Source: Urechidicola croceus
GTDB taxonomy: Bacteria > Bacteroidota > Bacteroidia > Flavobacteriales > Flavobacteriaceae
NCBI GenBank assembly: GCA_905181865.1
Contig: CAJIZG010000005.1
Location: 478,705 to 542,704 of the forward strand
Reading direction: 5' to 3'
Length of the DNA stretch: 64,000 nucleotides
The translations under genes and the position numbers were made by a program. Shown piece by piece: positions 13,358-40,396 of this stretch (its first letter is position 1; every line of letters starts with the position of its first letter). The notes beneath the pieces are model-generated. The model saw nothing but the letters and a program-made list of their open reading frames with translations, did not search any database and was not told the DNA's origin.

Positions 13358-16174
13358 TTGACTAAAAACGAACTATCAAGCAGCCTTATATGTTTTTTTA
13401 TATTCTTGAGTTCTTTGGCTCAAGAGTTGCCACCTATTCAAAATTTTTCTCCAGATAATTACTATGCTGGAAATCAAAATTGGATGATTTCTCAGTCTGC
13501 AGATCGGAATATCTTTATAGCCAATAATTCTGGGTTACTTGAGTTTAATGGTGCGAAATGGAAATTGAATACTTCTCTAAATGGATCTGTAGTCAGATCA
13601 GTCAAAGTGATTGATGGCCTTATTTATACTGGTTGTTATATGGATTTCGGTTTTTGGGAAAAGGACTTGTTTGGAGATTTGAATTACACCTCTTTAATTC
13701 CAAAGTTACATCAAGAACTTATTGAAGATGAACAGTTCTGGAATATTCAGGAATTTAGAGACTGGATTTTATTTCAATCTTTAGATCGAATTTACATTTA
13801 CAATACGAAAAAAGAAACATTTAACATTGTAGAGGCAAAATCTTTAAGGGCAAATATCTTTATTGAAAGGAATACTATTTATTTCCAAAAATTGAATGAA
13901 GGAATTTTTAAAATTGAAAATGGAAAATCTGTAGTAGTTATTGCTGATGCGGTTGTTAAAGAGAATAATCTAATTGGGACATTTATAATTAATGAAAACA
14001 TCGTGTTTCTTTTTGAAAACGGAGCTTTTTATAAATTTTCTGAAAACAAATTAATAAAATGGAATATTCCAGCCGACTCGGAAATAGGTGGTAAAAAGAT
14101 ATATTGTAGTTTGCAATTAGCAGATAACAGCATAGTTCTAGGAACCATTTCTAATGGAATTTACCAATTGAATTCAAATGGAAAAATAATTAGAAATATT
14201 AATAGACGGCATGGTCTTTTAGATAATACCATCTTGTCAATCTTTGAGGATGCAGAAAATAATTTATGGTTAGGTTTAGACAATGGGGTAAGTGTGTTGA
14301 ATTTGAAATCTCATTTTTCTATCAATACCGATTCTAAAGGGGAATTGGGTGTTGTATATGCATCCATAGCTACTAATGATTATTTGTATTTGGGAACAAA
14401 CCAAGGGCTGTTTTACAGGCCAGTTGAGGGAGACGGTAAATTTCAATTAATAAGCGGAACCGAAGGACAGGTTTGGTCATTAGATAAGGTTGATGCAACA
14501 TTGTTTTGTGGACACAACAAGGGTACCTTTGTCGTAGATGGAATTATTGCTGATAAAATTTCTGATTTTCCTGGTACTTGGGGAGTTAAGAAAGTTCCTT
14601 CGAATCAGAATCTTTTATTACAAGGAAATTATGAAGGGTTGAGTATTTTAGAAAAATTAAATGGTCAATGGCAATTTAGAAATAAAATAGAGGGATTTGA
14701 TATTCCTACTAGGTTTTTTGAATTTGTAGAAAATGATCAAATTATTATAAATCACGATCAAAAAGGAATATTCATTTTAGATATAGATAAGGATTTCGAG
14801 GAAATTTTGAATATCGAAAATTCGCCTTCTTACGGCTATGGTTCAAGTCTTGTAAAGCACATGAATGATATTATTTACACATCAAATTCATCTAGAGGAG
14901 TCTATAAATTTAATAGTGAAACAAAGAAGTTTATAGTAGATTCGGTTCTTACCAATACTTTTTATAAAAAAGATGAAGGTCTTATCGGTATCCTTATTTC
15001 TGACCATGATTCAAATAAACTATGGGGTTTTTCCGATAGAAACATTATTTGTGTTTCACAAGGAAAATTTAGTAATGCTTTTGATATAATTAATGTACCC
15101 ATAACTGCCTCTTTTAGAAGAAAATTTGGTCTTCTAGGGTTTGAAAGCTTGACTCATTTGGGGAATGAGATATATTTAATTGGAACCTCTAGTGGGTACT
15201 TATATATGGATATTAATACTATAGTTTCGGGGGAGCGTCAAATTAAGATAGATGCAATTAAAAACGAAACTCTTGATGGATTTTCTCAAAAAGTATTGAG
15301 AACTAGAGAAAAAAGTTTCAATTCCAATGAAAATAATTTTAAAGTTAATTTTAGTGATGCTCATTTTGATAAATATTCAGAGGTAGAATATCAATATCAA
15401 TTAATAGGTATCTACCATCACTGGAGTTCTTGGTCAAATCAATCTGAAATAGAACTTAATAATTTGTCTTTTGGTAGTTATAAGTTGAATATAAAATCAA
15501 GAATTGGGGATCAATTATCTTCTAATATGGAGTCTTTCTCTTTTAAAATTAGTAAGCCGTGGTATTTAACCAATTTCAGTCTTATAATCTATTCAATTGC
15601 AATCTTATTGTTTTCTTTCGGAATGCATAAAATATACAAAGTATATTACACAAGAGAGAAGCAACGCGAAATTAAGAGATCGCAACGAAAGTTGAAAATA
15701 GAGAATTTAAAGAATGAAAAAGAGATAATGCGAATTAAGAATGAAAATTTGTATTTAGATATAGAAAGCAGAAATAGAGAGGTAGGTTCGGCTACAATGA
15801 CCCTTATTAGAAAAAACGAATTTTTGGGTAGTTTGAAATCGGAACTTAAGAAAACGAAGTCACTAGATAATTTGGAGCAGATTATTAAAATTGTGGATGA
15901 AAATTTAAATAGTACAGATGACTGGAAACTATTTAAAAAGGCCTTTACTAACGCAGATAAGGATTTCTTTGATAAAATTAAAAAGATACATCCTAGTCTT
16001 ACCCCAAATGACTTAAAGTTATGTGCTTATTTAAGATTGAATTTGTCGTCTAAGGAAATTGCTCAGTTGTTAAATATTTCAACAAGAAGTGTTGAAATAA
16101 AAAGATATCGATTGCGAAAAAAGATTGAATTACCTAGCGAAAATAATCTTTCACAGTATATTTCAGAAATATAG
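13358..16174 (+). CDS. Membrane-spanning one-component regulator (propeller, Y_Y_Y, LuxR HTH)
   Basis: Probably the glycan-sensing regulator of the PUL. The 938-residue protein begins with a signal peptide (about residues 1-22), then a beta-propeller of Reg_prop-type repeats (for example ILSIFEDAENNLWLGLDNG), a Y_Y_Y domain (about 658-735), one transmembrane helix (about 738-757), a charged coiled coil (about 765-830) and a C-terminal LuxR-type helix-turn-helix (about 880-930; SSKEIAQLLNISTRSVEIKR). No histidine-kinase, receiver or AraC domain is present, so this is not a classical hybrid two-component sensor. The periplasmic part would sense oligosaccharide and the cytosolic HTH would bind DNA directly. 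The start is TTG, the first possible start after an in-frame stop, and it begins the signal peptide. SusC follows after 272 bases. Confidence 0.88.
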   Translation: MTKNELSSSLICFFIFLSSLAQELPPIQNFSPDNYYAGNQNWMISQSADRNIFIANNSGLLEFNGAKWKLNTSLNGSVVRSVKVIDGLIYTGCYMDFGFWEKDLFGDLNYTSLIPKLHQELIEDEQFWNIQEFRDWILFQSLDRIYIYNTKKETFNIVEAKSLRANIFIERNTIYFQKLNEGIFKIENGKSVVVIADAVVKENNLIGTFIINENIVFLFENGAFYKFSENKLIKWNIPADSEIGGKKIYCSLQLADNSIVLGTISNGIYQLNSNGKIIRNINRRHGLLDNTILSIFEDAENNLWLGLDNGVSVLNLKSHFSINTDSKGELGVVYASIATNDYLYLGTNQGLFYRPVEGDGKFQLISGTEGQVWSLDKVDATLFCGHNKGTFVVDGIIADKISDFPGTWGVKKVPSNQNLLLQGNYEGLSILEKLNGQWQFRNKIEGFDIPTRFFEFVENDQIIINHDQKGIFILDIDKDFEEILNIENSPSYGYGSSLVKHMNDIIYTSNSSRGVYKFNSETKKFIVDSVLTNTFYKKDEGLIGILISDHDSNKLWGFSDRNIICVSQGKFSNAFDIINVPITASFRRKFGLLGFESLTHLGNEIYLIGTSSGYLYMDINTIVSGERQIKIDAIKNETLDGFSQKVLRTREKSFNSNENNFKVNFSDAHFDKYSEVEYQYQLIGIYHHWSSWSNQSEIELNNLSFGSYKLNIKSRIGDQLSSNMESFSFKISKPWYLTNFSLIIYSIAILLFSFGMHKIYKVYYTREKQREIKRSQRKLKIENLKNEKEIMRIKNENLYLDIESRNREVGSATMTLIRKNEFLGSLKSELKKTKSLDNLEQIIKIVDENLNSTDDWKLFKKAFTNADKDFFDKIKKIHPSLTPNDLKLCAYLRLNLSSKEIAQLLNISTRSVEIKRYRLRKKIELPSENNLSQYISEI

Positions 16175-16193
16175 ACTGTATCTAAAATTATTC

Positions 16194-16381
16194 TTACCCC
16201 TACATCACCACAACATAATTAATTATTTGAAATCTAGTAAGCTGTTTTTTTAAATTTTAAACAGGAATCTTGTCTGGATATCTAATACTAGTAAAAACAA
16301 GGGTCTTGGCTTGAGAGGCAAATGATTTAATGGGGTTAAAGTTAGAATTAATTTTATGTTGTATGTTTTTTGTAGGGGTAA
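16194..16381. promoter_or_regulatory. Inverted 11-base motif pair upstream of susC, candidate operator
   Basis: TTACCCCTACA at 16194-16204 and its exact reverse complement TGTAGGGGTAA at 16371-16381 face each other across 166 bases in the gap between the regulator and susC. The second copy lies 65 bases before the susC start, at promoter distance. I did not find the motif at the other intergenic gaps of the locus. I infer binding sites for the adjacent LuxR-type regulator. A weak -7 box (TAGATTTA, 16410-16417) lies between the second copy and the start codon. Confidence 0.45.
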
Positions 16382-16446
16382 TTTAACATCAACAATTGTT
16401 AATTGTACATAGATTTACACAATAACAAATTAACAACTAATATAGT

Positions 16447-19400
16447 ATGATTTCAAAAATTTTATTTATTGGATTTTTTTTAACAGCATTTATATCCTTA
16501 GGGCAAAATATCGACGTTACTGGTAAAGTAATAGAAGATAGTTCTAATGAACCTCTGCCTGGAGTAAATGTTATTATCAAAAACACCAATGTAGGTGTAA
16601 CAACTGATTTTGACGGGAATTTTAACTTAGGTGGGGTTCCAATCAATTCAGTTTTGGTATTCTCTTCTCTCGGTTATCAAGAGAGCGAGTTTACAGTAAT
16701 TAATGATCAGGCAATTAATATAAAGTTAATTGTTGATATGGCCACCTTAGAGGAGGTCGTAATAGTAGGGTATGGTACTCAAACTAAAAAAGAAATTACA
16801 GGAGCTGTTTCTGTAATTAGTTCAGAAACTATTGAAAAATTAAATCCGGTTCGTGTTGAAAGTGCCCTGCAGGGTCAAGTCGCGGGAGTTAGCGTAACTT
16901 CTATATCTGGATCTCCTGGTAGTGCATCCAGTATTAGAATTCGAGGAATTACTACCAACGGAAACAACAATCCACTAATATTAGTTGATGGAAATGTTGT
17001 TGAAGATCTAAGTGTTATCAATCCCAATGATATTGAAAGTATTAATGTATTGAAAGATGCAACGGCAGGTATATACGGAGTAAGAGCTGCGAATGGGGTT
17101 ATATTAATTACTACGAAATCAGGTCGTAAAAATTCTGATTTAAAGTTTGATTTTAGCACTTATACGGGAATACAAGAAACTACTAGAACGATTCCTGTTT
17201 TAAATGCTACAGAATATGGAGCGTTGATTAATGAATCTCATGCAGTGGGTGGAGAGGATATACCCTTTGTAGATTTTGCAACATACGGGAAAGGAACAAA
17301 TTGGCAAGACGAGATTTTTCAAACCGCACCTATATCTAATGTGAATTTTAGCGCTGCTGGCGGGGGTGAAAAATCTAGTTATTCTTTTGGAACTTCGTAT
17401 TTAACCCAAGATGGGATAGTAGGAGGATCTGATGCTAATTTTAATCGCTTTACTGGAAGAGCAAGTTACGATATTGATTGGACTGAAAAGTTAAAGATGA
17501 CCACTACTGTTATATACGTCAACACCAATACGAAAACTTTAACGGAAAGTACATTGGGTTCAGTTTTGTTCAATGCTTTAAATATGTCACCTGCAATGAC
17601 CGTAAAAGATAGTAATGGAGATTACACTATCGCTGAAGGATTGGGTAATGAGGTCATCAACCCAGTTGCTCAGATTGAGAACACGTATAATGATAGTAAA
17701 GTAAATAAGATAAGTGGAACTATTGGTTTCAATTATAGTTTTTCAGATCATTTTAAAGTTGATTCCAAATATCAATTTAACTATGCTGAAGTGACTGGAA
17801 AGACATTTTTTCCAGAAGTTTTTTATGGTTCTGGGAAAGTGTTTAATATATCCAGAAATGTGATAACCGAAAATGACGATATTTACCGTGATTATACATT
17901 CGATAATTACGCTACTTATTCAAATAATTTTAACGATAGTCACAATGTAAAAGTCTTGCTAGGGATGTCTGTTTTTCAAACAACAGGTGATTTGTCAGGA
18001 TACACTGGATTCGATATTCCAGATAATTCTTACAGTCAAGCAACTATAAAAAATGCGTCTGATGTGGTAGATAACTATCAAAATGGAGGTAATACTTTTG
18101 ACGGAAGATTACTTTCCTATTTTACAAGAGTTCAATACGACTATAAGGGAAAGTATTTGCTTTCTGGAGTATTGCGTAGAGATGGATCAACCAGATTTGG
18201 TTCTGCCAATAAATTTGGTTATTTCCCTTCAGGATCAATTGGATGGATAGTTTCTGATGAATCATTTCTAGAAGATAGCAAAACCATAAATTTCTTCAAA
18301 TTAAGAGTTAGTTACGGTATTGTAGGGAACGATAGAATTCCAGATTATAGATTTGTTTCTTTACTATCAGGAGAAGGAACGTATGTTTTTAACGATGAAA
18401 TAAGTGTTGGTATTGCGGAAGGAGCTCTTGCAAATCCAGAAATAAAATGGGAAAAGCAAAAGACTTTTGATGTTGGTATGGATTTCAAATTGTTTGATAG
18501 CAAGGTAGACATTACCGTAGATTACTTTAATAAAAGAACCGAAGATTTATTATTAACACCGCAAGTATCTGGAATTTTAGGAGTGTATGCACCTGGATCT
18601 AGGGCCCCTATTGTGAATGCTGGAACCGTTGATAATTCTGGACTAGAATTTCAAATTGTCTATATGCATGATATTTCAGAAGATCTTAGATTTAATGCAA
18701 GCTATAATTTCACTACGTTAGAAAACGAAGTAATATATGTTGCCAGTGAAAATGGTTTTGTAGCTGGTGGAGAATTTGGAGTGGGATTGGAACCTCCATC
18801 TAGAATGGAAGTTGGACAACCCATAGGTTACTTTTACGGACTAAAAACACTAGGAGTTTTTCAAGACCAAGCAGCTGTTGAAAATCACCCAACACAATTG
18901 AACGCAGCTCCAGGAGATTTGAAATATGCCGATATAAATGAAGATGGAATTATTGATTCTAACGATAGAACCTATATTGGAGATCCTATTCCAGGTGTTA
19001 CGATGGGCTTTAATTTAGGGGTAAATTTTAAAAACTTCGACTTTACGGGTTATGTTTTTGCCTCTATTGGAAATGAGATCGTTCGAAATTATGAACGAAA
19101 TCAAAGTTTGACAAACAGAAGTGTTTATTTTTTAGACAGATGGACAGGTCAAGGAAGTACTAATGAAAATCCAAGAGTTACTACTGGTGCTAATTCAAAT
19201 CTTTTGTTTTCAGATTATTATGTTGAAGATGGTTCTTATGCAAGAATTCAAAATTTACAGGTTGGATATACCTTTTCAGACAAAGTAATCGAGTCATTAA
19301 GATTAGATAAATTTAGATTGTATGCTTCTGTGAACAATGTATACACTTTTTCAGATTATAAAGGTTACGACCCTTCGGCTTCTTCAGGAAATCCAATAGG

Positions 19401-19470
19401 AGGAGGTATTGATCAAGGATTTTATCCAGTTCCTAGAATATATATGCTTGGTTTAAACATTAAATTTTAA
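16447..19470 (+). CDS. susC: SusC-like TonB-dependent outer-membrane receptor
   Basis: This 1007-residue protein is the TonB-energised porin that brings glycan fragments through the outer membrane. It starts with a signal peptide (ending near SLGQ), then a carboxypeptidase-regulatory-like domain (about residues 22-105; GKVIEDSSNEPLPGVNV) and a plug with the SusC-type signature VVIVGYGTQTKKEITGAV and IRIRGITTNGNNNPLILVDG. A 22-strand barrel follows and ends in an aromatic residue (GLNIKF). Length and order are typical. susD starts 4 bases after the stop. As in characterised pairs, SusD would form the lid over this channel. Substrate is inferred as laminarin-type beta-1,3-glucan from the enzymes downstream. 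Confidence 0.95.
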   Translation: MISKILFIGFFLTAFISLGQNIDVTGKVIEDSSNEPLPGVNVIIKNTNVGVTTDFDGNFNLGGVPINSVLVFSSLGYQESEFTVINDQAINIKLIVDMATLEEVVIVGYGTQTKKEITGAVSVISSETIEKLNPVRVESALQGQVAGVSVTSISGSPGSASSIRIRGITTNGNNNPLILVDGNVVEDLSVINPNDIESINVLKDATAGIYGVRAANGVILITTKSGRKNSDLKFDFSTYTGIQETTRTIPVLNATEYGALINESHAVGGEDIPFVDFATYGKGTNWQDEIFQTAPISNVNFSAAGGGEKSSYSFGTSYLTQDGIVGGSDANFNRFTGRASYDIDWTEKLKMTTTVIYVNTNTKTLTESTLGSVLFNALNMSPAMTVKDSNGDYTIAEGLGNEVINPVAQIENTYNDSKVNKISGTIGFNYSFSDHFKVDSKYQFNYAEVTGKTFFPEVFYGSGKVFNISRNVITENDDIYRDYTFDNYATYSNNFNDSHNVKVLLGMSVFQTTGDLSGYTGFDIPDNSYSQATIKNASDVVDNYQNGGNTFDGRLLSYFTRVQYDYKGKYLLSGVLRRDGSTRFGSANKFGYFPSGSIGWIVSDESFLEDSKTINFFKLRVSYGIVGNDRIPDYRFVSLLSGEGTYVFNDEISVGIAEGALANPEIKWEKQKTFDVGMDFKLFDSKVDITVDYFNKRTEDLLLTPQVSGILGVYAPGSRAPIVNAGTVDNSGLEFQIVYMHDISEDLRFNASYNFTTLENEVIYVASENGFVAGGEFGVGLEPPSRMEVGQPIGYFYGLKTLGVFQDQAAVENHPTQLNAAPGDLKYADINEDGIIDSNDRTYIGDPIPGVTMGFNLGVNFKNFDFTGYVFASIGNEIVRNYERNQSLTNRSVYFLDRWTGQGSTNENPRVTTGANSNLLFSDYYVEDGSYARIQNLQVGYTFSDKVIESLRLDKFRLYASVNNVYTFSDYKGYDPSASSGNPIGGGIDQGFYPVPRIYMLGLNIKF

Positions 19471-19474
19471 GAAA

Positions 19475-20947
19475 ATGAAAAGAATGAACTATAAATTAAT
19501 AAGAGTACTGTTTATTATAAGTTTAGTAACAGTATGGTCTTGTAACGAAGACTTTGTTGATGTCGCATCACTTGATGAAAACTCAGAAGAATATTTTAAT
19601 TCAGAGGAAGACTACCAAAATGCGCTCATTGGAGCCTATGATCTTTTGCAATCTACATACGCAAATGTAATGCTTGGTGAAATCGCTTCAGACAATTCCT
19701 TGTGTGGGGGTGAAAGTGCAACAGATGTAGTAGGATGGCAAGAAATAGATGATATGATTCACACACCTGAAAACGCAAACCTTAGAGATATTTGGGGTTG
19801 GATGTACGCTGGAGTAAATAGAGCAAATTTCATTATGGAATTTCAAGATAAAACAGATTTTACTGGTAAAAATGAAGTATTGGCACAAGCACGATTTTTA
19901 AGAGCCTATTATTACTTTGAATTGGTAAAATGGTTTGGAGATGTGCCGTTGTCTGTAGATAAAAGAATACAATTTGGAGATCAATTTAGTATAGAACGAA
20001 CTCCTAAGACCGCAGTTTATGCACAGATAGAAATCGATTTACAATTTGCTGCGTCCAATTTACCATCAGTACAGCCTGAAAAAGGTCGAGTGACAAGCGG
20101 TGCTGCAAATGCTCTTTTAGGAAAAGTATATTTATTTCAAGATAAATTTTCAGAAGCTGCAGAAGTACTTGATCAGGTGATCGCCGGTCCTTACGATTTA
20201 GTGGATGATTATGATGCAATTTTTGAGCATGATGGGGAAAATGGAGTTGAGTCAGTTTTTGAAATTCAATATTCTGATGCAGAAGGAGGTAGTTTTGATT
20301 GTTTGCAATGCAGTGAAGGTAATGTTGCTGTAGGGTTTAATGGTATTAGAAATTATACGGGTCCTGAATTTGATTCTGGATTTAGTTTTAACGTACCAAC
20401 GCAAGAAGTAGTAGATGAATTTGAAGAGGGCGATCTTCGTAAAGACGTTGCGATTTTGGATATAGAGCAATGGGCTGCTGACAATGAGGCAACATATGCA
20501 ACAGGGTTTGAACATACGGGTTATTATAACCGAAAATATATTGCACGTAAAGGAGATTTGAATACAGGAGATGCAAACCTTACAAACCCTAATAATTATA
20601 GAGCCATACGTTTTGCTGACGTATTGTTAATGGCGGCGGAAGCTTATAACAGAGGTAGTTTGGGCGATAATATTGCGCAAGGTTATTTAAACAGAGTTAG
20701 AGCTCGAGCATTTGGAGGCACAGATCATACAATTTCTGCTACTGGATCCGACTTGACTCAAGCTATTTATCACGAACGAAGAGTAGAATTGGTAGGAGAA
20801 GGTCACCGATTTTTCGATTTGGTGAGAACAGATAGAGCTGCTCAAGAAATAGATGGATTTGAAACAGGAAAACATGAAATATTTCCTATTCCATCAATTG
20901 AAATTGAATTGGCAGGAGGTACATGGCTACAAAATCCTAGATATTAA
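19475..20947 (+). CDS. susD: SusD/RagB-type glycan-binding lipoprotein
   Basis: This 490-residue surface lipoprotein is the lid of the SusC channel and captures oligosaccharide. Its lipobox ends at Cys23 and is followed by acidic residues (CNEDFVD), which fits surface export in Bacteroidota. TPR-like helices carry family segments: QARFLRAYYYFELVKWFGDVP in the first third and, near the C-terminus, YHERRVELVGEGHRFFDLVRT and the closing segment HEIFPIPSIEIE, a standard SusD ending. It follows susC by 4 bases and precedes the repeat lipoprotein gene by 18. The binding residues cannot be picked out by eye. Confidence 0.94.
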   Translation: MKRMNYKLIRVLFIISLVTVWSCNEDFVDVASLDENSEEYFNSEEDYQNALIGAYDLLQSTYANVMLGEIASDNSLCGGESATDVVGWQEIDDMIHTPENANLRDIWGWMYAGVNRANFIMEFQDKTDFTGKNEVLAQARFLRAYYYFELVKWFGDVPLSVDKRIQFGDQFSIERTPKTAVYAQIEIDLQFAASNLPSVQPEKGRVTSGAANALLGKVYLFQDKFSEAAEVLDQVIAGPYDLVDDYDAIFEHDGENGVESVFEIQYSDAEGGSFDCLQCSEGNVAVGFNGIRNYTGPEFDSGFSFNVPTQEVVDEFEEGDLRKDVAILDIEQWAADNEATYATGFEHTGYYNRKYIARKGDLNTGDANLTNPNNYRAIRFADVLLMAAEAYNRGSLGDNIAQGYLNRVRARAFGGTDHTISATGSDLTQAIYHERRVELVGEGHRFFDLVRTDRAAQEIDGFETGKHEIFPIPSIEIELAGGTWLQNPRY

Positions 20948-20965
20948 AATTAAAAAATTATAAAC

Positions 20966-23065
20966 ATGAAAACATTCAACTATATAATAAGTGTTGTTTT
21001 ATTACTAACAGCGGTTTCGAGTTGTACCGAGGAGGATTTTGGTAATCTAGACTTTATTGATAGCATCACTGCGCCAGAAAATGTGTCAGCGCTGTTTACA
21101 GTGACACCAGATAATACAGGTCTTGTTACCATTACACCAAACAGTGAAGGAGCAACCTCATACGAAGTTCATTATGGCAATGATATTACAACTCCAGTAA
21201 GTATAGAGCAAGGGGAAAGCACTAATAGTATATATCCAGAGGGAAATTATGAGGTAAAGGTAATTGGAGTTGGACTTTCGGGATTAAAAACGGAAGCTAT
21301 GGTTCCTTTAGTGGTGTCGTTTAATGCTCCTACTAATTTGGTAATTACATCTATGAACGACGAGGTTATTTCGAAACAGGTAAATGTAACGGTAACAGCA
21401 GAATTTGCTACTTCGTTTGACGTATATTTTGGAGAAACGGGAATTGATGAACCAGTGATGGCGAATATTGGAGAAACAGCCTCGTATATTTATGCAGAAC
21501 CAGGAACTTATTCCATTAGGGTTGTGGCTAAAGGAGCTGCGGTTGAAACAACCGAAGAGACTATAGAGTTTGAAACAGTAGAAATCTTACAGCCCGTAAC
21601 GCCTGCTCCAGAGCCAACAGCGCAAGAAGCTAATGTGGTTTCTATTTACAGCGATGTATATACTAATATTGCTATAAGCGAATTAAATCCGGATTGGGGA
21701 CAAAGCACTGTTTTAACCGAAATTCAAATAGAGGGTAATAATACATGGTTTTATAATTCCTTAAATTTCACGGGAATTGTAACCGATTATGGCAATCCTA
21801 CAGTCCTTTCGGGAATGTCACATGTTCACTTTGATTATTGGTCGCCAGATGGAGTAAAATTAGGTTTAAAACTGGTGAACACGTCCTATGACGATGGAGA
21901 CCCATTAAAAGCAGATTTGAAAGAAGTAGGGTCAGTAATACAAGGAGAATGGGTGTCTGTTGATATTGTCTTAGCAGATTATTCTACAGATGTATCCGGT
22001 ATTTCACAGCTTTTATTTGATACACTAGGTGAGACTGCAAATGTATATATAGATAATTTTTATTTCTATCAAGATGTACCTACATCACCCGCAGTTGCAG
22101 CAACAGCGCCAACAGCACAAGCTGCTAATGTAGTTTCAATCTACAGTGATGCTTATACCAATGTTTTCTTAAGTGAAGTAAATCCAAATTGGGGTCAAAC
22201 TACCGCTTTAACTGAAGTTGAAATTGAAGGTAATAAGACTTGGAAATATGAGGGTTTAAGTTTTACTGGAATTGTAACTGATTATGGTAATGCTACAGAT
22301 CTTTCTGGGATGACCCACGCACATTTTGATTATTGGTCGCCTGATGGAGTTAGTTTAGGATTAAAATTAGTGAACACGGCATATGGTGACGGAGATCCTT
22401 TAAAAGAGGATATAGAAAACGTTGGAACTATGACTTTGGGCAGTTGGGTAAGTGTAGATATTCCACTTGTAGATTATACGACAGATCCATCTGGGATTAC
22501 ACAACTTTTATTTGATACGTCAGGAGAAAGCGCTACAGTATTTATAGATAATTTTTATTTCTATAAGGAAATCCCTCCGGCACCATTGGTGGCAGCACCG
22601 ATTCCGACTTTAGATGCTGTCAATGTGATTTCTATTTATAGTGACGCCTATACTGGAGTTGCATTAAGTGAAGTAAATCCAAACTGGGGACAGACGACTG
22701 CATTAACTGAAGTTGAGATAGAAGGTAACAATACCTGGTTATATGAGAATTTAAGTTTCACTGGAATTGTAACCGATTATGGAAATGCAACGGATTTATC
22801 CACAATGACGCATGTTCATATAGATTATTGGACACCAGACGGAACGAGTCTTGGATTGAAACTTGTCAATACGGCTTATGGCGACGGAGATGCTCTTAAG
22901 GAAGATATAGAAAATGTCGGAGTTATGGTGCATGGAAGTTGGGTAAGTATCGAGATTCCATTAGCGGATTATACGACGGATACATCGGGCATTACACAAT
23001 TGCTATTTGATACGTCAGGAGAAAGCGCTAAAGTGTATATAGATAATCTTTACTTCCATAATTAG
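20966..23065 (+). CDS. Surface glycan-binding lipoprotein with three tandem modules
   Basis: This 699-residue protein sits in the usual SusE/surface glycan-binding position. Its lipobox ends at Cys20 followed by acidic residues (CTEEDFG), suggesting the outer surface. Residues about 35-115 and 120-205 look like two Ig/PKD-like beta domains (NVSALFTVTPDNTGLVTI; IEFETVEIL). From about residue 217 three copies of a 165-residue module follow, each with ANVVSIYSD, NWGQ, FTGIVTDYGN, DYWSPDG, LGLKLVN, GSWVSV, LLFDT and IDNFYFY. The IDNFYFY ending resembles carbohydrate-binding beta-sandwich modules. Tryptophans recur at fixed places and could stack on glucose. I infer multivalent beta-glucan binding; the module family is not named with certainty. 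Confidence 0.85.
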   Translation: MKTFNYIISVVLLLTAVSSCTEEDFGNLDFIDSITAPENVSALFTVTPDNTGLVTITPNSEGATSYEVHYGNDITTPVSIEQGESTNSIYPEGNYEVKVIGVGLSGLKTEAMVPLVVSFNAPTNLVITSMNDEVISKQVNVTVTAEFATSFDVYFGETGIDEPVMANIGETASYIYAEPGTYSIRVVAKGAAVETTEETIEFETVEILQPVTPAPEPTAQEANVVSIYSDVYTNIAISELNPDWGQSTVLTEIQIEGNNTWFYNSLNFTGIVTDYGNPTVLSGMSHVHFDYWSPDGVKLGLKLVNTSYDDGDPLKADLKEVGSVIQGEWVSVDIVLADYSTDVSGISQLLFDTLGETANVYIDNFYFYQDVPTSPAVAATAPTAQAANVVSIYSDAYTNVFLSEVNPNWGQTTALTEVEIEGNKTWKYEGLSFTGIVTDYGNATDLSGMTHAHFDYWSPDGVSLGLKLVNTAYGDGDPLKEDIENVGTMTLGSWVSVDIPLVDYTTDPSGITQLLFDTSGESATVFIDNFYFYKEIPPAPLVAAPIPTLDAVNVISIYSDAYTGVALSEVNPNWGQTTALTEVEIEGNNTWLYENLSFTGIVTDYGNATDLSTMTHVHIDYWTPDGTSLGLKLVNTAYGDGDALKEDIENVGVMVHGSWVSIEIPLADYTTDTSGITQLLFDTSGESAKVYIDNLYFHN
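21614..23062 (+). repeat. Three tandem in-frame repeats of 495 bases
   Basis: Repeat units begin at 21614, 22109 and 22604, so the period is exactly 495 bases (165 codons) both times. Units 2 and 3 are the most alike at the protein level; their differences are largely synonymous, which points to duplication followed by purifying selection. Unit 1 is more diverged. The linkers between units are rich in proline and alanine. Confidence 0.85.
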
Positions 23066-24071: not shown

Positions 24072-24105
24072 TAAATAGTATCAATTTTTATTTAGCTTAA
24101 TATAG

Positions 24106-25440: not shown

Positions 25441-28400
25441 ATGATTAATAAGTCAATATATATAGGACGTAAAGAAGTTTTTATGGATGAAAAAAAAGTG
25501 GATGGAGAATTAATTCAATTCGAAAACGAATCATATTACAAAATTTCAAATTATGATTTGATGCGACCTTTTTTCATGAGTATTGTAAGCGATTCTAATC
25601 ATTGGATGTTTATCTCAAGTAGAGGTGGATTAACAGCAGGTAGAAAGGATAGCGAGTCAGCACTTTTCCCTTATTATTCCGATGATAAAATTACAGAAGC
25701 GTCAGATATTACTGGGAGTAAAACTATATTTCAAGTTCACGTAAACGATAAAATATTATTATGGGAACCTTTTTCGGACAGATATATAGGAACTTATAAA
25801 ACCCAACGTAATTTATATAAAAATAGTTTTGGAAACAAAATTATTTACGAAGAGATCAATCATAGTTTGGGGCTCACTTTCAGATATCAATGGAACTTTA
25901 GTCATACATATGGTTTTGTAAAAAAGAGTATACTTATAAACAATAATAGTGATGAAATTAGTGTAACTCTTTTAGACGGAATTCAGAATATTATGCCTTA
26001 TGGTGTTGAAGAGGGATTACAAGCAATTCGAAGTAACCTTGTTGATGCCTACAAGAAAAATGAATTGGAGGCGGAAGTTGGAATCGGAGTATTTTCATTA
26101 AGTGCTATCATTGTAGATCGGGCTGAACCTAGCGAAGCGTTAAAAGCTTCCGTAGTATGGTCTTATGGTTTGGAGGATGTGACTTATTTGGTTTCTTCTT
26201 TACAAGTAGCAGATTTTAGAAGAGGAAAATCAATAGTTCAAGAAAATGATATAAGAGCAGAAAAGGGGGCTTATTTTGTTTCAACTTCGATAGTGTTGTC
26301 TTCAGATAGACAAAAGACTTGGATGATTGTGGCAGACGTAAATCAGACTATAAACTCCATCGTTCATACGTCTGAATTAATCAAGAGCAAGAAAGATATT
26401 TTTGAGTTAGTTCAAGAGGATATAGCGTTGGGGACAAAACAGTTATTTTGTTTAAATGCATCTTCAGATGCGTTGCAAATGACCGCCGACAAAATGCGAA
26501 ACGGACGTCATTTTTCGAACACGCTTTTCAATATTATGCGTGGTGGTGTTTTCGATGATAACTATCAAATTGAAAAATCAGATTTTATAAACTATATTTC
26601 AAAAGCGAATAAGGATGTATTAAAACGGAATGGACAACTTCTAAATGCTCTATCAGAATATTTTACACTAAATCAATTAAAAGAGTTACTTGAGAAAGAG
26701 CAAGATTTAGATCTAAAAAGATTGGCTTTTGAATACATGCCGTTAAAATTTAGTAGACGACACGGAGATCCGAGTAGACCATGGAATAAGTTTTCTATCA
26801 ATACATATAATGAAGTAGATGACTCTAAAATATTAGATTACGAAGGTAATTGGAGAGATATTTTTCAGAACTGGGAAGCCTTGGCACATTCATATCCGGA
26901 GTTTATCGAAAATATGATTCATAAGTTTTTAAACGCAACTACTTTTGACGGTTATAACCCCTACAAGGTAACCAAAGATGGGTTTGATTGGGAAACAATA
27001 GAGCCAGATGATCCTTGGTCTTATATTGGGTATTGGGGGGATCATCAGATTATTTACTTGTTAAAGTTTTTAGAATTTATAGAAGATCATTACCCAAATA
27101 AATTATCGAGTTATTTCAATCAAGACATTTTCGTTTTTGCCAATATACCATATAAAATAAAAAGTTATAAAGACATTTTATCGAACCCTAAAGATACGAT
27201 TGACTTTGATGTTTCTTTGGATAAAAGAATCAGAAAAGAGCAGAAAATCATTGGAGGGGATGGAGCCCTGCTAAAAGATAAGAATAACGAGGTTTACAAT
27301 GTAAATCTTATTGAAAAACTGTTAGTTACGACTTTGACAAAAGTGTCGAACTTTATTCCAGAGGGAGGAATTTGGATGAATACGCAAAGACCCGAATGGA
27401 ATGATGCAAACAATGCTTTGGTAGGGAATGGAGTTTCCATGGTAACGCTGTATTATTTAAGACGTTTTTTAAACTTCTTTGACAAGACTGTTCAAAATGC
27501 CTCGGAAGACCAATACTCAGTATCTTTAGAATTGGCTTTGTTTTTAGAGCGTGTTTTGGAAACATTTACATCAAATACTAACATTTTAATTTCAAGAATT
27601 TCCAATAGAGAAAGAAAAATAATAGTGGACGGTTTGGGAAATGCAGCTGATAATTACCGAAGTGGAATTTATAAAAGTGGGCATTCTAACGTTAAAGAAG
27701 TAATTAGTAAAGAGAGATTGTTGTCCTTTATTGAGGTTACATTGGAATATTTAAATCATACTATTAAAGCGAATAAAAGAACTGATAATTTGTATCATTC
27801 GTATAATTTAATGACTGTTGAAAATGATGATGAGGTTTCAATTTCACATTTACCCTTAATGCTAGAAGGTCAGGTTGCTATTTTAAGTTCGGGTTTTATA
27901 TCGGCCACATCGTCTTTAGAATTATTGGATGGGTTAAAAAACAGTGTACTCTTTAGACCAGATCAGTGCAGTTATATTTTATATCCGGATAAAAAACTTC
28001 CAAGATTTACGGAGCGGAATAATTTGCCAGTAGAAAAATTGGCAACTTCTATTTTGTTGCATCGACTTTTGGAAGAGGGAAATATCGAAATAATTGAAAA
28101 AGATATCTTAGGACAAGTTCATTTTAATGGAAGTTTTAACAATGCCGAAAGTCTAAAGACGGCCTTGTCTCAATTATCAAAGGAAGAATTTGGAGATATT
28201 TTAAATAAAGAAGAAAAATTAGTGTTGGAGATTTTTGAGGATGTTTTTAACCACAAAGCATTTACTGGTAGATCAGGAACATTCTATGGTTATGAAGGAC
28301 TAGGTTCGATTTATTGGCATATGGTTTCTAAATTGTTGCTGAGTGTTCAAGAAACTTGTTTTGATGCTATTTCGAGTAATGAGAATGAAGAGGTTGTAGT

Positions 28401-28905
28401 AAGGTTATTCGAGCATTATTACGAAATACATGAAGGAATTGGAGTGTATAAATCACCAGAATTGTATGGGGCATTTCCTACGGATCCTTATTCGCATACT
28501 CCAGGAGGTAAAGGGGCGCAACAGCCTGGACTGACTGGACAAGTAAAAGAAGATATTTTGAGTCGATTTGGAGAACTAGGAGTTTTTGTAAAGCATGGGC
28601 AACTACAATTTAATCCCAAAATGTTGCGCAAGGAAGAGTTTTTAAAAGAGTCTAGAACGTTTCATTATGTTGATGTAAATAAACAATTAAAAAAAATAGA
28701 ATTAGAACAGAATTCGCTCTGTTTTACCTATTGCCAAACACCTGTAATTTATCAATTAGCTAGTAAAGGCGGAATAGGACTTTATTATTCTGACAGAGCA
28801 CCTATGTATTTTGATTCTTTACAGCTAGATACTAGAATAAGTGCTCAGATTTTTAGAAGAACTGGTGAAATCGAAGTAATCATTGTTTCATTACAAGAAA
28901 ACTAA
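25441..28905 (+). CDS. Probable beta-1,3-glucan phosphorylase (GH149-like)
   Basis: The 1154-residue product has no signal peptide and is therefore cytoplasmic. It has an N-terminal beta-sandwich-like region (about residues 1-320) and a large helical region, as in clan GH-Q inverting phosphorylases. The segment RPEWNDANNALVGNG, with Asp655, resembles the catalytic Asp region of GH94-type enzymes. RRHGDPSRPWN and PDDPWSYIGYWGDHQ look like substrate and phosphate-site segments. Great length and a place beside GH16, GH17 and SusC/D genes fit GH149, whose characterised members use phosphate to release alpha-glucose-1-phosphate from beta-1,3-glucan chains. The family assignment rests on memory of length, motif and context and needs a profile search; GH94 or GH161 would be the alternatives. 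Confidence 0.7.
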   Translation: MINKSIYIGRKEVFMDEKKVDGELIQFENESYYKISNYDLMRPFFMSIVSDSNHWMFISSRGGLTAGRKDSESALFPYYSDDKITEASDITGSKTIFQVHVNDKILLWEPFSDRYIGTYKTQRNLYKNSFGNKIIYEEINHSLGLTFRYQWNFSHTYGFVKKSILINNNSDEISVTLLDGIQNIMPYGVEEGLQAIRSNLVDAYKKNELEAEVGIGVFSLSAIIVDRAEPSEALKASVVWSYGLEDVTYLVSSLQVADFRRGKSIVQENDIRAEKGAYFVSTSIVLSSDRQKTWMIVADVNQTINSIVHTSELIKSKKDIFELVQEDIALGTKQLFCLNASSDALQMTADKMRNGRHFSNTLFNIMRGGVFDDNYQIEKSDFINYISKANKDVLKRNGQLLNALSEYFTLNQLKELLEKEQDLDLKRLAFEYMPLKFSRRHGDPSRPWNKFSINTYNEVDDSKILDYEGNWRDIFQNWEALAHSYPEFIENMIHKFLNATTFDGYNPYKVTKDGFDWETIEPDDPWSYIGYWGDHQIIYLLKFLEFIEDHYPNKLSSYFNQDIFVFANIPYKIKSYKDILSNPKDTIDFDVSLDKRIRKEQKIIGGDGALLKDKNNEVYNVNLIEKLLVTTLTKVSNFIPEGGIWMNTQRPEWNDANNALVGNGVSMVTLYYLRRFLNFFDKTVQNASEDQYSVSLELALFLERVLETFTSNTNILISRISNRERKIIVDGLGNAADNYRSGIYKSGHSNVKEVISKERLLSFIEVTLEYLNHTIKANKRTDNLYHSYNLMTVENDDEVSISHLPLMLEGQVAILSSGFISATSSLELLDGLKNSVLFRPDQCSYILYPDKKLPRFTERNNLPVEKLATSILLHRLLEEGNIEIIEKDILGQVHFNGSFNNAESLKTALSQLSKEEFGDILNKEEKLVLEIFEDVFNHKAFTGRSGTFYGYEGLGSIYWHMVSKLLLSVQETCFDAISSNENEEVVVRLFEHYYEIHEGIGVYKSPELYGAFPTDPYSHTPGGKGAQQPGLTGQVKEDILSRFGELGVFVKHGQLQFNPKMLRKEEFLKESRTFHYVDVNKQLKKIELEQNSLCFTYCQTPVIYQLASKGGIGLYYSDRAPMYFDSLQLDTRISAQIFRRTGEIEVIIVSLQEN

Positions 28906-28923
28906 TCTAACAAGGAGACAGTA

Positions 28924-30204
28924 ATGAAGACCCTTTATAAAATACTTTCAGTCGGAGTAATCAGTTTTATGATGATTAACTGTGTAAATAAAGAAGAGAC
29001 GAACAAACAAGATAATATGAAGAAAATATCAGCAAAAGATATATTAGGTAACCCAGACTATTTAGCAATTTCATATAGTGGCTATCGGGAGAATTCGCGA
29101 GATATAGAACCAACTATTGATCAACTAAAAGAAGATATGAAAATTTTGGCCGCTATGGGAATTAAACTATTGCGCACCTATAATGTTCAACTAGAACAGA
29201 CGGCCAATTTATTAAAGACTATTAGTCAATTAAAAGTTGAAGATCCAAATTTTGAAATGTATGTAATGTTGGGTGCTTGGATTGATTGTGAAAATGCTTG
29301 GACAAATAGAGTTCCGAATCATGAAGTAGAAAGTCGAGACAACGCGGAGGAAATCGGCAGAGCAATAGTTTTGGCAAAAAAGTATCCAACTATTGTAAAG
29401 ATTATTGCTGTAGGTAACGAGGCAATGGTGAAATGGGCAGAAAGTTATTACGTGCAGCCAGGAGTGATTCTTAAATGGGTTAATCATTTACAAGGTCTTA
29501 AAAAGAAGGAAGAACTTCCAATAGATTTATGGATTACAAGTTCAGATAATTTTGCTTCATGGGGAGGTGGGGAAAGCGAATATCATGTAAATGATTTAAC
29601 AAACCTTATCAAAGCGGTAGATTATATATCTCTGCACACATACCCTATGCACGACACGCACTACAATCCTGCCTTTTGGGGTGTGCCAAATAATGAACAA
29701 TTGAGTGATCTAGAGAAAATTGAAGTCGCTATGCTTCACGCAAAGGACTATGCCGTTTCTCAATATCAAAGCACTTTAAATTATATGAAAAGTCTAGGTG
29801 TAAATAAACCTATTCATATTGGTGAAACTGGATGGGCAAGTAACTCCAATAAAGAGTACGGAGACCACGGATCAAAAGCAACTGATGAATACAAAGAAGC
29901 CTTGTATTATAAGTATATGCGCGATTGGACGAAAGAAAAAGGGATATCGTGTTTTTATTTTGAAGCTTTTGATGAAAGTTGGAAAGATGCGGAAAATATA
30001 TTGGGTTCTGAAAATCACTTTGGTTTAATCAATTTGAAGAGCCAAGCAAAATATGCACTATGGGATTTTGTCGATAAAGGAGTTTTTAACGGGATAACCA
30101 GAGATGGACAGGAAATAACGAAAACATACAATGGTAATATGGCGTTGCTTTTGAATGATATATTAGTCCCATCGAAGAAGTTTAAAGTAATGAATCATGA
30201 ATAA
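28924..30204 (+). CDS. GH17 beta-1,3-glucan hydrolase or transglycosylase, lipoprotein
   Basis: This 426-residue lipoprotein (Cys20, with a less typical lipobox MINC) is a TIM-barrel enzyme of family GH17. The predicted acid/base is Glu166 in AVGNEAMV and the nucleophile is Glu301 in IGETGWAS; both motifs are standard for the family. MGIKLLRTYNVQ near the front matches the first barrel strands. GH17 enzymes act on beta-1,3-glucan as endo- or exo-glucanases or as glucanosyltransferases, and these cannot be separated here. The residues after the lipid Cys are not strongly acidic (CVNKEET), so a periplasmic place is more likely than the surface. It follows the phosphorylase gene by 18 bases and is surely in the same operon. 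Confidence 0.88.
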   Translation: MKTLYKILSVGVISFMMINCVNKEETNKQDNMKKISAKDILGNPDYLAISYSGYRENSRDIEPTIDQLKEDMKILAAMGIKLLRTYNVQLEQTANLLKTISQLKVEDPNFEMYVMLGAWIDCENAWTNRVPNHEVESRDNAEEIGRAIVLAKKYPTIVKIIAVGNEAMVKWAESYYVQPGVILKWVNHLQGLKKKEELPIDLWITSSDNFASWGGGESEYHVNDLTNLIKAVDYISLHTYPMHDTHYNPAFWGVPNNEQLSDLEKIEVAMLHAKDYAVSQYQSTLNYMKSLGVNKPIHIGETGWASNSNKEYGDHGSKATDEYKEALYYKYMRDWTKEKGISCFYFEAFDESWKDAENILGSENHFGLINLKSQAKYALWDFVDKGVFNGITRDGQEITKTYNGNMALLLNDILVPSKKFKVMNHE

Positions 30205-30229
30205 AATTAACCCATAAAATAGTTTGGAA

Positions 30230-31237
30230 ATGTTAAGACAGTCCATAGTGACGTTTTTTATTGGGATGCTAATCTCCTGTAATACTATTGAAACCGCTAA
30301 TAAAATAACAATTTTGGAACGTCAAATTTTGGTCAATGGGAACCCATATTTAATCAAAGGTATTTGTTACCACCCAGTTCCTAAGGGTAGTCTTTCAAGA
30401 GATTTTGGTAACTTAACTCAGGATTTAAATTTGATGGTTGAGGCAGGAATAAATACGATAAGAGCCTATGCCCCTATTGATGATGTGGCTGTTTTAGATG
30501 AAATATGCGCTGCTGGTATAAAATTAATTATAGGTTTTGGATATAACCAAGATGGAAATTTTGATATCCTTTCGGGAACCTTTATCGATTATATAAATAA
30601 GTATAAAAATCATGATGCTATTTTGTTATGGGAACTGGGGAATGAGTACAATTATCATCCGGAATGGTTCGAAGGAGACCTAAAAAATTGGTATCAACTA
30701 TTAAATAATGCTTCGGAACTGATACATAAAAATGACCCATTACATCCTGTAGCAACAGCCCATGGGGAATTGCCAGATTCTCTGGCACTTTCTACGTGTC
30801 CTAGTATAGACGTTTGGGGAATGAATTTATACCGCTGGGATACTCCAAACAAAGTTTTCGAAGAGTGGGTTGCGATTAGCACCAAACCCATGTATCTCTC
30901 TGAAGCAGGAAGTGATAGTTATATGACGATTGAGAAAGAGGGATATCATGCAGGAGTCAATGAGAGGGCGCAAGCAGATGCTAACCAGAATATTTTAAAT
31001 ATAATTTTTAATGCTACTGAAGTCTGTTCGGGAGTTACCATGTTTTCATTTACTGATGGTTGGTGGAAGGCAGGGAATAATAATAAACAAGATACGGGAG
31101 GACAGGCTCCGAATAGTAGCGGAGTTCCATATGATGGTGCACCAAATGAGGAATATTGGGGAATGGTTGATATAGAGCGAAACAAAAAAAGAGCATTTGA
31201 AATCTTGAAAAGAAAATATAACCAAAGTATAGAATAA
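30230..31237 (+). CDS. Clan GH-A glycoside hydrolase, lipoprotein, family unassigned
   Basis: This 335-residue lipoprotein (lipobox ISC, Cys17) is a TIM-barrel glycosidase of clan GH-A. The predicted acid/base is Glu139 in WELGNEYN and the nucleophile Glu225 in LSEAGSD. The front (YLIKGICYHPVPKGS, then EAGINTIRAYAP) resembles the GH2 catalytic barrel and also GH72-type glucanosyltransferases; GH158 is another thought. I used the ATG at 30230; a TTG six bases earlier is possible. The gene lies 25 bases after GH17 and 28 before the symporter. By context it should act on beta-1,3- or beta-1,6-linked gluco-oligosaccharides, perhaps at branch points, as no GH30 is present. That role is an inference. 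Confidence 0.75.
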   Translation: MLRQSIVTFFIGMLISCNTIETANKITILERQILVNGNPYLIKGICYHPVPKGSLSRDFGNLTQDLNLMVEAGINTIRAYAPIDDVAVLDEICAAGIKLIIGFGYNQDGNFDILSGTFIDYINKYKNHDAILLWELGNEYNYHPEWFEGDLKNWYQLLNNASELIHKNDPLHPVATAHGELPDSLALSTCPSIDVWGMNLYRWDTPNKVFEEWVAISTKPMYLSEAGSDSYMTIEKEGYHAGVNERAQADANQNILNIIFNATEVCSGVTMFSFTDGWWKAGNNNKQDTGGQAPNSSGVPYDGAPNEEYWGMVDIERNKKRAFEILKRKYNQSIE

Positions 31238-31265
31238 TACTTACAACTAATTAAATATTTAAGGT

Positions 31266-32696
31266 ATGAAACATTCTAAAACCGCTCCTAAAGACAGAGT
31301 GGCATTTGGCCAAAAGATGGCTTTTGGTGCAGGTCACCTAGTGCTAAACTTGTTGCCAGGATCTTTAGCTATATTTATGTTTTTTTTATTGACTGCCTTT
31401 GGAATGGATCCCTTTTTAGCAGGATTATTAGGGGGTCTTCCACGTATATTTGATGCTTTAACAGACCCTATAATGGGTTTTATTTCAGACAACACAAAAT
31501 CGAGATGGGGGAGAAGAAGGCCTTATATTTTTGTTGGAGCTATATTAAGCGGCGTATTGTTTGCAGTTTTATGGCAATTAGATCCAGAGAACACGGAGTT
31601 TTTTAACTTTTGGTATTTTTTAATTTTATCGATGGTTTTCTTAATTGGAAATACCATGTTTGCAACTCCTTTGATAGGATTAGGATATGAAATGACCTCT
31701 GATTATAACGAGCGAACACGTTTAATGGCGTTTTCCCAAATTATTGGTCAAATTGCATGGATGATTGTTCCGTGGTTTTGGGTGCTTATTGCAAGTCCAG
31801 ATATATTCGAAACACAAGCCATAGGAGTTCAGCGCCTTTCTGTAATCGTTGGAGCGATTTGTATAGTTCTAGGTTTACTTCCTGCTTTCTTTTGCAAAGG
31901 TATTGATTCCTCGCATATGGAAAATAGAAAAGTAATCTCGTTTAAAACAATGTTTTCAAACTGGAAAGATCTTTTTCAAGGAATTGTGCAGGTTTCTAAA
32001 AACAAGCCTTTTATGAAACTTTGTGGCGCCACTTTTTTGGTGTTTAATGGGTTTCAGATGGTGGCATCTTTTAGTTTTTTTATTATTGTTTATTATATGT
32101 TTAATGGCGATTTTGTACTGGCAGGAAACTGGCCAGCATGGTTTTCTACTGTAACCGCATTTTTAACGGCATTTGTTGTAATTCCAATCATTTCTTGGAT
32201 CGCAAATAATTGGGGGAAAAGAAAAGCCTTTATAATTTCTACAGCAATTTCAATAATAGGTTATGTCCTTAAATGGTGGGCATTTGATCCAGAGAATCCT
32301 TGGTTAATCTTTATGCCACTTCCATTTATAGCATTTGGCTTAGGAGGTTTATTTACGCTAATGATGAGTATGACTGCTGATGTTTGTGATTTAGATGAAT
32401 TGAATAATGGGATGCCGAGAAAGGAAGGGACTTTTGGTGCTATTTATTGGTGGATGGTGAAGTTAGGGCAAGCCTTGGCTTTGGTTTTAGGAGGTTTAGT
32501 ATTAAAAGTAGTGGGTTTTGATCAAAATGCTACATTACAATCAGTCGAAACCATGACAAATTTAAGAATAGCAGATATTCTTATTCCATCTATAACGGCT
32601 TCACTGGCGATTTGGGTTATGTGGAAATATAGTCTGAATGAATCGAGGGCTCATGACATAAAAGAAGCATTGGTGAAAAGGAGAGGAGAATTATAA
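31266..32696 (+). CDS. GPH-type sugar:cation symporter (MFS)
   Basis: This 476-residue inner-membrane transporter has the features of the glycoside-pentoside-hexuronide:cation symporter group: twelve predicted helices, the loop SDNTKSRWGRRRPYIFVG between helices 2 and 3, GYEMTSDYNERTRL, and in the second half MTADVCDLDELNNGMPRKEG. Members import glycosides with H+ or Na+. Placed between periplasmic and cytoplasmic glucanase genes, it is the likely door for laminari-oligosaccharides into the cytosol, where the phosphorylase and the signal-less GH17 would meet them. Confidence 0.88.
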   Translation: MKHSKTAPKDRVAFGQKMAFGAGHLVLNLLPGSLAIFMFFLLTAFGMDPFLAGLLGGLPRIFDALTDPIMGFISDNTKSRWGRRRPYIFVGAILSGVLFAVLWQLDPENTEFFNFWYFLILSMVFLIGNTMFATPLIGLGYEMTSDYNERTRLMAFSQIIGQIAWMIVPWFWVLIASPDIFETQAIGVQRLSVIVGAICIVLGLLPAFFCKGIDSSHMENRKVISFKTMFSNWKDLFQGIVQVSKNKPFMKLCGATFLVFNGFQMVASFSFFIIVYYMFNGDFVLAGNWPAWFSTVTAFLTAFVVIPIISWIANNWGKRKAFIISTAISIIGYVLKWWAFDPENPWLIFMPLPFIAFGLGGLFTLMMSMTADVCDLDELNNGMPRKEGTFGAIYWWMVKLGQALALVLGGLVLKVVGFDQNATLQSVETMTNLRIADILIPSITASLAIWVMWKYSLNESRAHDIKEALVKRRGEL

Positions 32697-32722
32697 AATC
32701 AGATACTAAAAAGAAATATTAT

Positions 32723-33607
32723 ATGTCGGTTAGAGAAGGGAAAAAATTGGCACTAGCAGGAGTAGATTATGCTAGTAAAACAGATAGGGGAATCCAAAAT
32801 ATATTTAATAGGCTATTGAAAAATGGCATGCATGGAATATGTTTTAGTCTATATGAGGAAGGTCAAAATCCGGGGGATCAAATTACGGAAGATCAAATTA
32901 GAAGGAGGATGGAGATTATAAAGCCATATACTAAATGGATTCGTACATTTTCATGTACCGATGGTAATGAAGCTATCCCGCGAATTGCTAAGGAATATGG
33001 GATTAAAACCTTGGCTGGAGCATGGCTAGGTGATGACAATGAGATTAATAATCAGGAAATAGCAGGACTCATTAAATTAGCTAAGGAAGGTTATGTAGAT
33101 ATCGCCGCAGTTGGTAACGAGGTCCTATATCGTAAAGATTTATCTGAAAGTGAGTTACTACACTTTATACAGCAAGTAAAAGAGGCTATTCCAACTATTC
33201 CTGTGGGATATGTTGACGCCTACTATGAGTTTGTAGATAGACCAAAAATTACAGAGGCATGTGATGTAATTTTGGCGAATTGTTATCCATATTGGGAAGG
33301 GTGTAGGATTGATTATGCGCTTGTATATATGAAAGAAATGTACAACCAAGCGGTAAAAGTCGCTAATGGCAAAAAAGTTATTATTACTGAAACAGGATGG
33401 CCAAGTATGGGAGAAAGCTTTGAAGGTGCGTATCCGTCCTATGACAATGCAAAAAGGTATTTTATCAATACGCAACAGTGGGCAGAAACTGATGATTTGG
33501 AGTTGTTTTATTTTTCATCTTTTGATGAACCTTGGAAAGTAGGAGCCGAAGGTGATGTTGGAGCTTATTGGGGTCTTTGGGATAAGGATGAAAAATTAAA
33601 GTTTTAA
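32723..33607 (+). CDS. Cytoplasmic GH17-family enzyme
   Basis: A second GH17 protein, 294 residues, without signal peptide or lipobox, so predicted to act in the cytosol. The predicted acid/base is Glu133 in AVGNEVLYR and the nucleophile Glu223 in ITETGWPSMGE, the latter very close to the plant and fungal GH17 consensus. The C-terminus (FSSFDEPWKVG...WGLWDKDEKLKF) closes the barrel. It is the last glycosidase of the locus, 26 bases after the symporter gene. It could trim imported beta-1,3-oligosaccharides or transfer glucosyl units to lengthen them for the phosphorylase. It differs strongly from the lipoprotein GH17, so the two are not recent duplicates. Confidence 0.85.
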   Translation: MSVREGKKLALAGVDYASKTDRGIQNIFNRLLKNGMHGICFSLYEEGQNPGDQITEDQIRRRMEIIKPYTKWIRTFSCTDGNEAIPRIAKEYGIKTLAGAWLGDDNEINNQEIAGLIKLAKEGYVDIAAVGNEVLYRKDLSESELLHFIQQVKEAIPTIPVGYVDAYYEFVDRPKITEACDVILANCYPYWEGCRIDYALVYMKEMYNQAVKVANGKKVIITETGWPSMGESFEGAYPSYDNAKRYFINTQQWAETDDLELFYFSSFDEPWKVGAEGDVGAYWGLWDKDEKLKF

Positions 33608-40393: not shown

Positions 40394-40396
40394 GAG

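Follow-up and report, generated by a model that had tools for sequence, protein, structure and literature searches.

Two variants of laminarin polysaccharide utilization locus (PUL) have been described: variant 1, with GH149, GH17, GH16, GH158 and GH30 (a content published as 'including variations'), and variant 2, which has GH3 (PMC10877868, PMC10108472). GH149 had already been reported in PULs of Bacteroidetes, for which GH3 and/or GH30_1 are given as common features (PMC5827456), and in laminarin PULs of Formosa (PMC6246565). The Muricauda clusters are described as a GH17A-GH30_1-MFS-GH17B block preceded by GH149 (in some clusters by GH3 instead), and with a LuxR gene at the head of many of them; the same account mentions laminarin induction of related Formosa genes (PMC13188888). 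Here we examine a locus of this kind in a 64,000-nucleotide stretch of the genome of Urechidicola croceus (Flavobacteriaceae; assembly GCA_905181865.1, contig CAJIZG010000005.1, positions 478,705 to 542,704 of the forward strand), referred to below as the window. Positions 13358-33607 of the window hold about 20 kb of co-directional genes that form one PUL. We are confident that it is a variant-1 (GH149-type) laminarin PUL that lacks the GH30_1 enzyme common to most such loci and that its predicted pathway is phosphorolytic.

The phosphorolytic step would be carried out by a protein of 1154 residues. This protein, which has no Pfam match, scores 1750.5 bits against the NCBIfam equivalog NF058639 for GH149 (cut-off 1150; positions 2-1133 of 1134), and its residues 11-1153 match the solved GH149 structure PDB 6hq6 (E=0). 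It carries the GH149 motifs W653-N654-D655 and R472-D473, the counterparts of which in the GH149 enzyme Pro_7066 (PDB 6hq6/6hq8) are given as W651/N652/D653 and R470/D471 (PMC6771811); the match between the two enzymes is near full-length, with WND and RD shared. The protein is thus a member of GH149, with the predicted activity of a beta-1,3-glucan phosphorylase, and it is the single GH149 match that a profile search returned from the window's genome. An earlier note on the window had proposed a signal-less, phosphorylase-like protein and a phosphorolytic step. The former is borne out by NF058639, 6hq6, the two motifs and the absence of a signal by eye, and the latter gains support at the sequence level from the GH149 identity and from catalytic residues that match those described for Pro_7066.

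The locus is of a described and common design, and it is unusual only in that GH30_1 is missing and in that one enzyme, a clan GH-A lipoprotein that we call GHA, is unclassified. The earlier note had listed SusC/D, two lipoproteins, GH16, two GH17 enzymes, a clan GH-A enzyme, a GPH symporter and the 1154-residue protein, all in one direction; every one of these frames exists, with short gaps between them, and the first gene of the locus is a regulator that the note left unnamed:

13358..16174, plus strand: regulator with beta-propeller/Y_Y_Y and LuxR-type helix-turn-helix regions (Pfam PF07495, PF00196)
16447..19470, plus strand: SusC-type TonB-dependent transporter (Pfam Plug, CarbopepD_reg_2)
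19475..20947, plus strand: SusD-type glycan-binding lipoprotein (Pfam SusD_RagB, SusD-like_3; lipobox-like SC by eye)
20966..23065, plus strand: LP1, lipoprotein with three similar tandem repeats, probably glycan-binding (CTEED after the lipobox, by eye)
23085..24020, plus strand: LP2, lipoprotein, probably glycan-binding (CEEE after the lipobox, by eye)
24106..25227, plus strand: GH16 laminarinase-type lipoprotein (Pfam PF00722, 3.7e-26; best match PDB 5wut, ULam111, 6.3e-64)
25441..28905, plus strand: GH149, predicted beta-1,3-glucan phosphorylase, 1154 residues (NF058639; PDB 6hq6; WND and RD motifs)
28924..30204, plus strand: GH17A, endo-laminarinase-type lipoprotein (Pfam GH17; PDB 6fcg, which is FbGH17A, E=1.4e-186)
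30224..31237, plus strand: GHA, unclassified clan GH-A lipoprotein, 337 residues (Pfam GH2_C; E141 and E227 the likely catalytic pair)
31266..32696, plus strand: GPH-type sugar symporter of the inner membrane (Pfam MFS_2, 3.3e-60)
32723..33607, plus strand: GH17B, probable beta-1,3-glucanosyltransferase (Pfam GH17; PDB 4wtp, the R. miehei transferase, 1.7e-38)

Taken in this order, the successive intergenic gaps are 272, 4, 18, 19, 85, 213, 18, 19, 28 and 26 bases. LP1 and LP2 match no family above cut-off in Pfam and profile searches; the LP1 repeats span roughly 160 residues each (by eye), and the protein is likely a multivalent glycan binder. The GPH symporter also matches TIGR00792 (6.2e-58), its 196.5 bits lying under the cut-off of 231.

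Gene content, family membership, catalytic motifs and conserved gene order can be read directly from the DNA. With variant-1 PULs as described for Formosa sp. Hel1_33_131 and North Sea metagenome-assembled genomes (MAGs; PMC6246565, PMC10108472, PMC10877868) the locus shares SusC/D, GH16, GH149, GH17, an MFS-type transporter and a second GH17, and those descriptions do not list GH3 for the variant. They place an unclassified 'GH0' beside GH149 (PMC10108472), which is probably GHA or its like. The set of SusC/D, GH149, GH17 and GH16 that marks variant 1 is thus present in the window; GH30_1, which also marks it, is absent, with no GH30 match in the genome, and GH17B is a separate gene rather than a transporter fusion. 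The Muricauda PULs (PMC13188888, PMC11005184) are described as sharing GH16, GH149 (or GH3), GH17A, MFS and GH17B, as well as the LuxR gene that is first in many of them and the transfer residues of a signal-less GH17B, but they have GH30_1 and GH2 where the window carries GHA.

These matches of content and order to published variant 1 uphold the earlier assignment to a laminarin-type PUL. Family-level calls cannot separate beta-1,3-glucan substrates, and the genome gave no match to GH30, the family that usually debranches laminarin, as would fit an unbranched glucan; the target could be a beta-1,3-glucan other than algal laminarin (curdlan, callose, yeast or mixed-linkage glucan). We regard this as unlikely, since GH17A matches FbGH17A from a Formosa laminarin PUL at 1.4e-186, ULam111 is the best match of the GH16 enzyme, and the gene order equals that of laminarin PULs as published.

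The design is widespread among relatives. Of 299 Flavobacteriaceae genomes sampled, 102 have GH149, 101 of them above cut-off. One stretch of about 20 kb (12.8 kb for L104) was taken from each of 80 of the 102; left out were the window's genome, 17 genomes in which GH149 was partial, close to the end of its contig or on a short contig, and G086, G216 (by choice), G192 and G135, as was a second copy in G050. A gene was scored as present by its best blastp match at E<=1e-8, except for GH30 (60% identity) and GHA (45%). By this measure the 80 loci contain GH17A-like genes in 73 cases, GPH in 74, GH17B in 62 and GH30 (at least 60% identity) in 62, in the conserved order GH149-GH17A-(GHA)-GH30-GPH-GH17B; SusC occurs in at least 25, a lower bound because genes more than 9.3 kb upstream lay outside the stretches. 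A GH3-like frame is present in 17 and absent from 63, as judged with both GH3 proteins from the window's genome as queries, so that a divergent GH3 could be missed. The counts fit the statement in PMC5827456 for GH30_1, and less so for GH3. The earlier suggestion that a GH3-free phosphorolytic design is out of the ordinary does not hold up: it matches variant 1 as published, and we dropped it as a special trait given those 63 of 80 loci.

GH3 and GH30 are both missing from the locus, as the earlier note had said, and GH30 has no match anywhere in the assembly (97.39% complete); GH3, however, has two matches elsewhere in the genome. The first (C2, 816 residues) resembles exo-beta-1,3/1,6-glucosidase (604 bits, cut-off 1330) and BglX (556 bits, cut-off 666), adjoins a sulfatase-like frame (by eye) and lies outside any laminarin locus. 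For the second (C1, the first 861 residues of a longer frame with a PBP4B-like part), a beta-N-acetylhexosaminidase model is best, under its cut-off. The 816-residue protein raises the possibility that final cleavage is mainly hydrolytic, with the unlinked GH3 (and periplasmic GHA) freeing glucose while GH149 carries only a small flux or runs in the synthetic direction. Its place beside a sulfatase-like frame, the genetic tie of GH149 to laminarin genes in relatives and the GPH importer, which purely periplasmic release of glucose would not need, make this very unlikely.

Several points nevertheless weigh against the phosphorolytic variant-1 pathway that we favor, or against parts of it. The unlinked exo-beta-1,3/1,6-glucosidase/BglX-like GH3 could share the final step, and a GH30 gene could be missing from an assembly that is 97.39% complete. 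The compartments proposed below depend on lipoboxes and on charge after the cysteine, both judged by eye, and on the rule for export to the surface. Finally, a genome of the same genus (G113) has no GH149, and a search without positive control, which is no proof of absence, found no GH17A in it; the locus is accordingly accessory.

GH30 matches are present in 87 of the 102 GH149 genomes and absent from 15, the window's among them (some of these genomes are incomplete). The usual order in relatives of the same layout is GH17A-GHA-GH30-GPH-GH17B; where they carry GH30, the window has a GHA-GPH gap of just 28 bases, which leaves no room for a remnant and marks a clean absence. The window's locus looks like a case of GH30 loss rather than of a swap. 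A plain replacement of GH30_1 by GHA was ruled out, as 19 of the 23 GHA loci carry both.

The two GH17 enzymes differ in their N-termini. SusD, LP1, LP2, GH16, GH17A and GHA all have a lipobox, with acidic residues after it in the first four but not in GH17A and GHA; GH149 and GH17B have no apparent signal sequence (all by eye). Acidic residues after the lipobox cysteine mark lipoproteins for export to the cell surface. The pattern suggests cutting and binding at the surface, trimming in the periplasm, import by GPH and phosphorolysis inside. GH17B retains E133 (acid/base), Y136, W191, E192 and E223. Tyr136, Trp191 and Glu192, here with the same numbering, are tied to transglycosylation in enzymes of the MlGH17B/RmBgt17A type, and the second glutamate, E223 in the window, is printed there as Glu233 (PMC11005184). 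Among 63 aligned GH17B proteins, the window's included, the Trp and both these glutamates are kept in all 63 and the Tyr in 59. GH17B is probably a cytosolic transglycosylase, a beta-1,3-glucanosyltransferase. Characterized MlGH17B forms beta-1,6 links, and has very low activity below a degree of polymerization (DP) of 5; the DP2-4 oligosaccharides made by MlGH17A are not substrates for it. In a genome without GH30, branched products of GH17B would need another enzyme.

We infer compartments, substrate, flux, regulation and the role of GHA from these features, and the pathway would run as follows. GH16 would cut laminarin at the surface, SusC/D and the binding lipoproteins would import the fragments, and the periplasmic lipoproteins GH17A and GHA would trim them; the GPH symporter would then carry short laminari-oligosaccharides inward, where GH149 would phosphorolyse them to glucose 1-phosphate (Glc1P) and a last free glucose, with GH17B as the probable cytosolic transglycosylase. 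Glc1P may enter glycolysis via phosphoglucomutase (PGM), or glycogen via a GlgC encoded about 13 kb away. Two PGM-type genes and two ROK-type frames (putative sugar kinases) in the genome could take up Glc1P and glucose.

Pro_7066 is reported to phosphorolyse laminaritriose down to glucose (PMC6484121). One triose would thus give two Glc1P and one free glucose, and each chain should yield Glc1P from all residues but the last. The earlier claim of one ATP saved per glucose released was therefore overstated, as the saving is per phosphorolytic cut. MlGH17A is described as making mostly laminaritriose (PMC13188888); if GH17A does likewise, two thirds of the glucoses would be spared an ATP.

Strong relatives (E<=2.4e-77) of GHA, the only GH2_C-type match in the window's genome, turn up in 34 of the 299 genomes, and 32 of these 34 are among the 102 with GH149; at E<=0.001 matches extend to 168 genomes, many of them to GH2-type proteins. 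In named loci around the best 80 of 344 relatives (8-kb flank or to the contig end; many contigs end within the flank), GH149 is present in 71, GH17A-like genes in 75, GPH in 75, GH17B in 58, GH30_1 in 55 and GH3 in 13. These best 80 records include Bacteroidales, Saprospiraceae, Balneolaceae, Kiritimatiellales and Pontiella labels. Three loci pair GHA with GH149 outside Bacteroidota: L173 and L181 (Kiritimatiellales and Pontiella, both MAGs) and L199 (Pontiellaceae B1224, not labelled MAG), for which transfer of the module is possible.

Each of the 22 aligned GHA members has a Pfam GH2_C match, and 15 also give a weak hit to GH72. The AlphaFold2 model of GHA is a TIM barrel (mean pLDDT 86.8). 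Among PDB structures, Foldseek matches it best to GH2 uronidases, GH158 and GH157, with identities of 15-22% and similar scores; a profile search against the PDB places GH158 9oro first (2.4e-12, residues 67-204 only), followed by GH2 6ncw (1.6e-11). GHA shares the clan GH-A barrel with GH158 (9oro) and GH157 (9fz9, 9g4n), which are among its nearest solved folds and were solved with laminari-oligosaccharides. However, identity to them is about 17-20%, GH2 uronidases score equally or better, and GHA is a single barrel of 337 residues with invariant motifs of its own; it has no full-length match to GH158 (fold TM about 0.65 at 20% identity). Neither E141 (in GNE) nor E227 varies in the two alignments made, A1 and A2 (139 and 225 in A2 numbering), and the two residues fit the acid/base and nucleophile of clan GH-A. 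Literature searches returned no assay of GHA and no work joining GH157, Labilibaculum and laminarin.

The 80 GH149 loci of Flavobacteriaceae divide into 23 with GHA only, 46 with a GH2-like protein of about 1060 residues only, 11 with neither and none with both, an overlap of zero that has a naive chance of 4e-12 when genomes are treated as unrelated. The N-terminal barrel of the GH2-like protein is homologous to GHA (25% identity over 311 columns, E 1e-22). We consider it plausible, at somewhat less than even chance, that the two stand in for each other in a single task, likely the periplasmic trimming of ends or branches. Strict exclusion was ruled out, as the named locus L167 has both; genome G223 has a strong GHA and a 1072-residue GH2-like frame on separate contigs. 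In one example of the GH2-like protein from these alternative GH149 loci (L071:913-4095), the roughly 650 residues after the GHA-homologous barrel resemble an outer-membrane beta-barrel by eye.

A GH31-GlgB-GlgC-GlgA-type glycogen cluster lies at 37862-44974, convergent with the PUL. A GlgC (E<=1e-100) is encoded in 52 of 101 GH149 genomes versus 48 of 198 others, with genomes treated as unrelated, one partial GH149 genome dropped and divergent GlgC missed; it shares a contig with GH149 in 21 genomes, in 12 of which (the window included) the two are at most 100 kb apart. This co-occurrence and proximity suit the proposal, already made, that Glc1P from GH149 feeds alpha-glucan storage (PMC11093988). 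A wider joint reading strikes us as doubtful: GHA would belong to a new GH-A family that is dedicated to phosphorolytic beta-1,3-glucan loci, debranches or trims ends in the periplasm and makes GH30_1 dispensable in this lineage, and GH149 with a beta-1,6-forming GH17B would be a cytosolic counterpart of maltodextrin phosphorylase and amylomaltase that sends Glc1P to the neighboring glycogen cluster. The MalP/MalQ-like pairing of GH149 and GH17B is weakened by the poor activity of MlGH17B below DP5 and by GH149 reaching glucose alone.

Elsewhere in the window, a 740-residue protein with multiheme cytochrome c motifs and HEAT and TPR repeats is encoded just downstream of the PUL (35285-37507). 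An RND efflux set (AcrB-type pump, HlyD-type adaptor and outer-membrane efflux protein) lies on the minus strand at 56108-62111, and positions 2619-3992 encode another outer-membrane efflux protein.

Laminarin makes up a major pool of carbon in the sea, and when it is split with phosphate, some of the energy of the bond is conserved in Glc1P. The locus described here adds a natural case without GH30_1 to the variant-1 scheme, and the activity of GHA would close a gap in that scheme.

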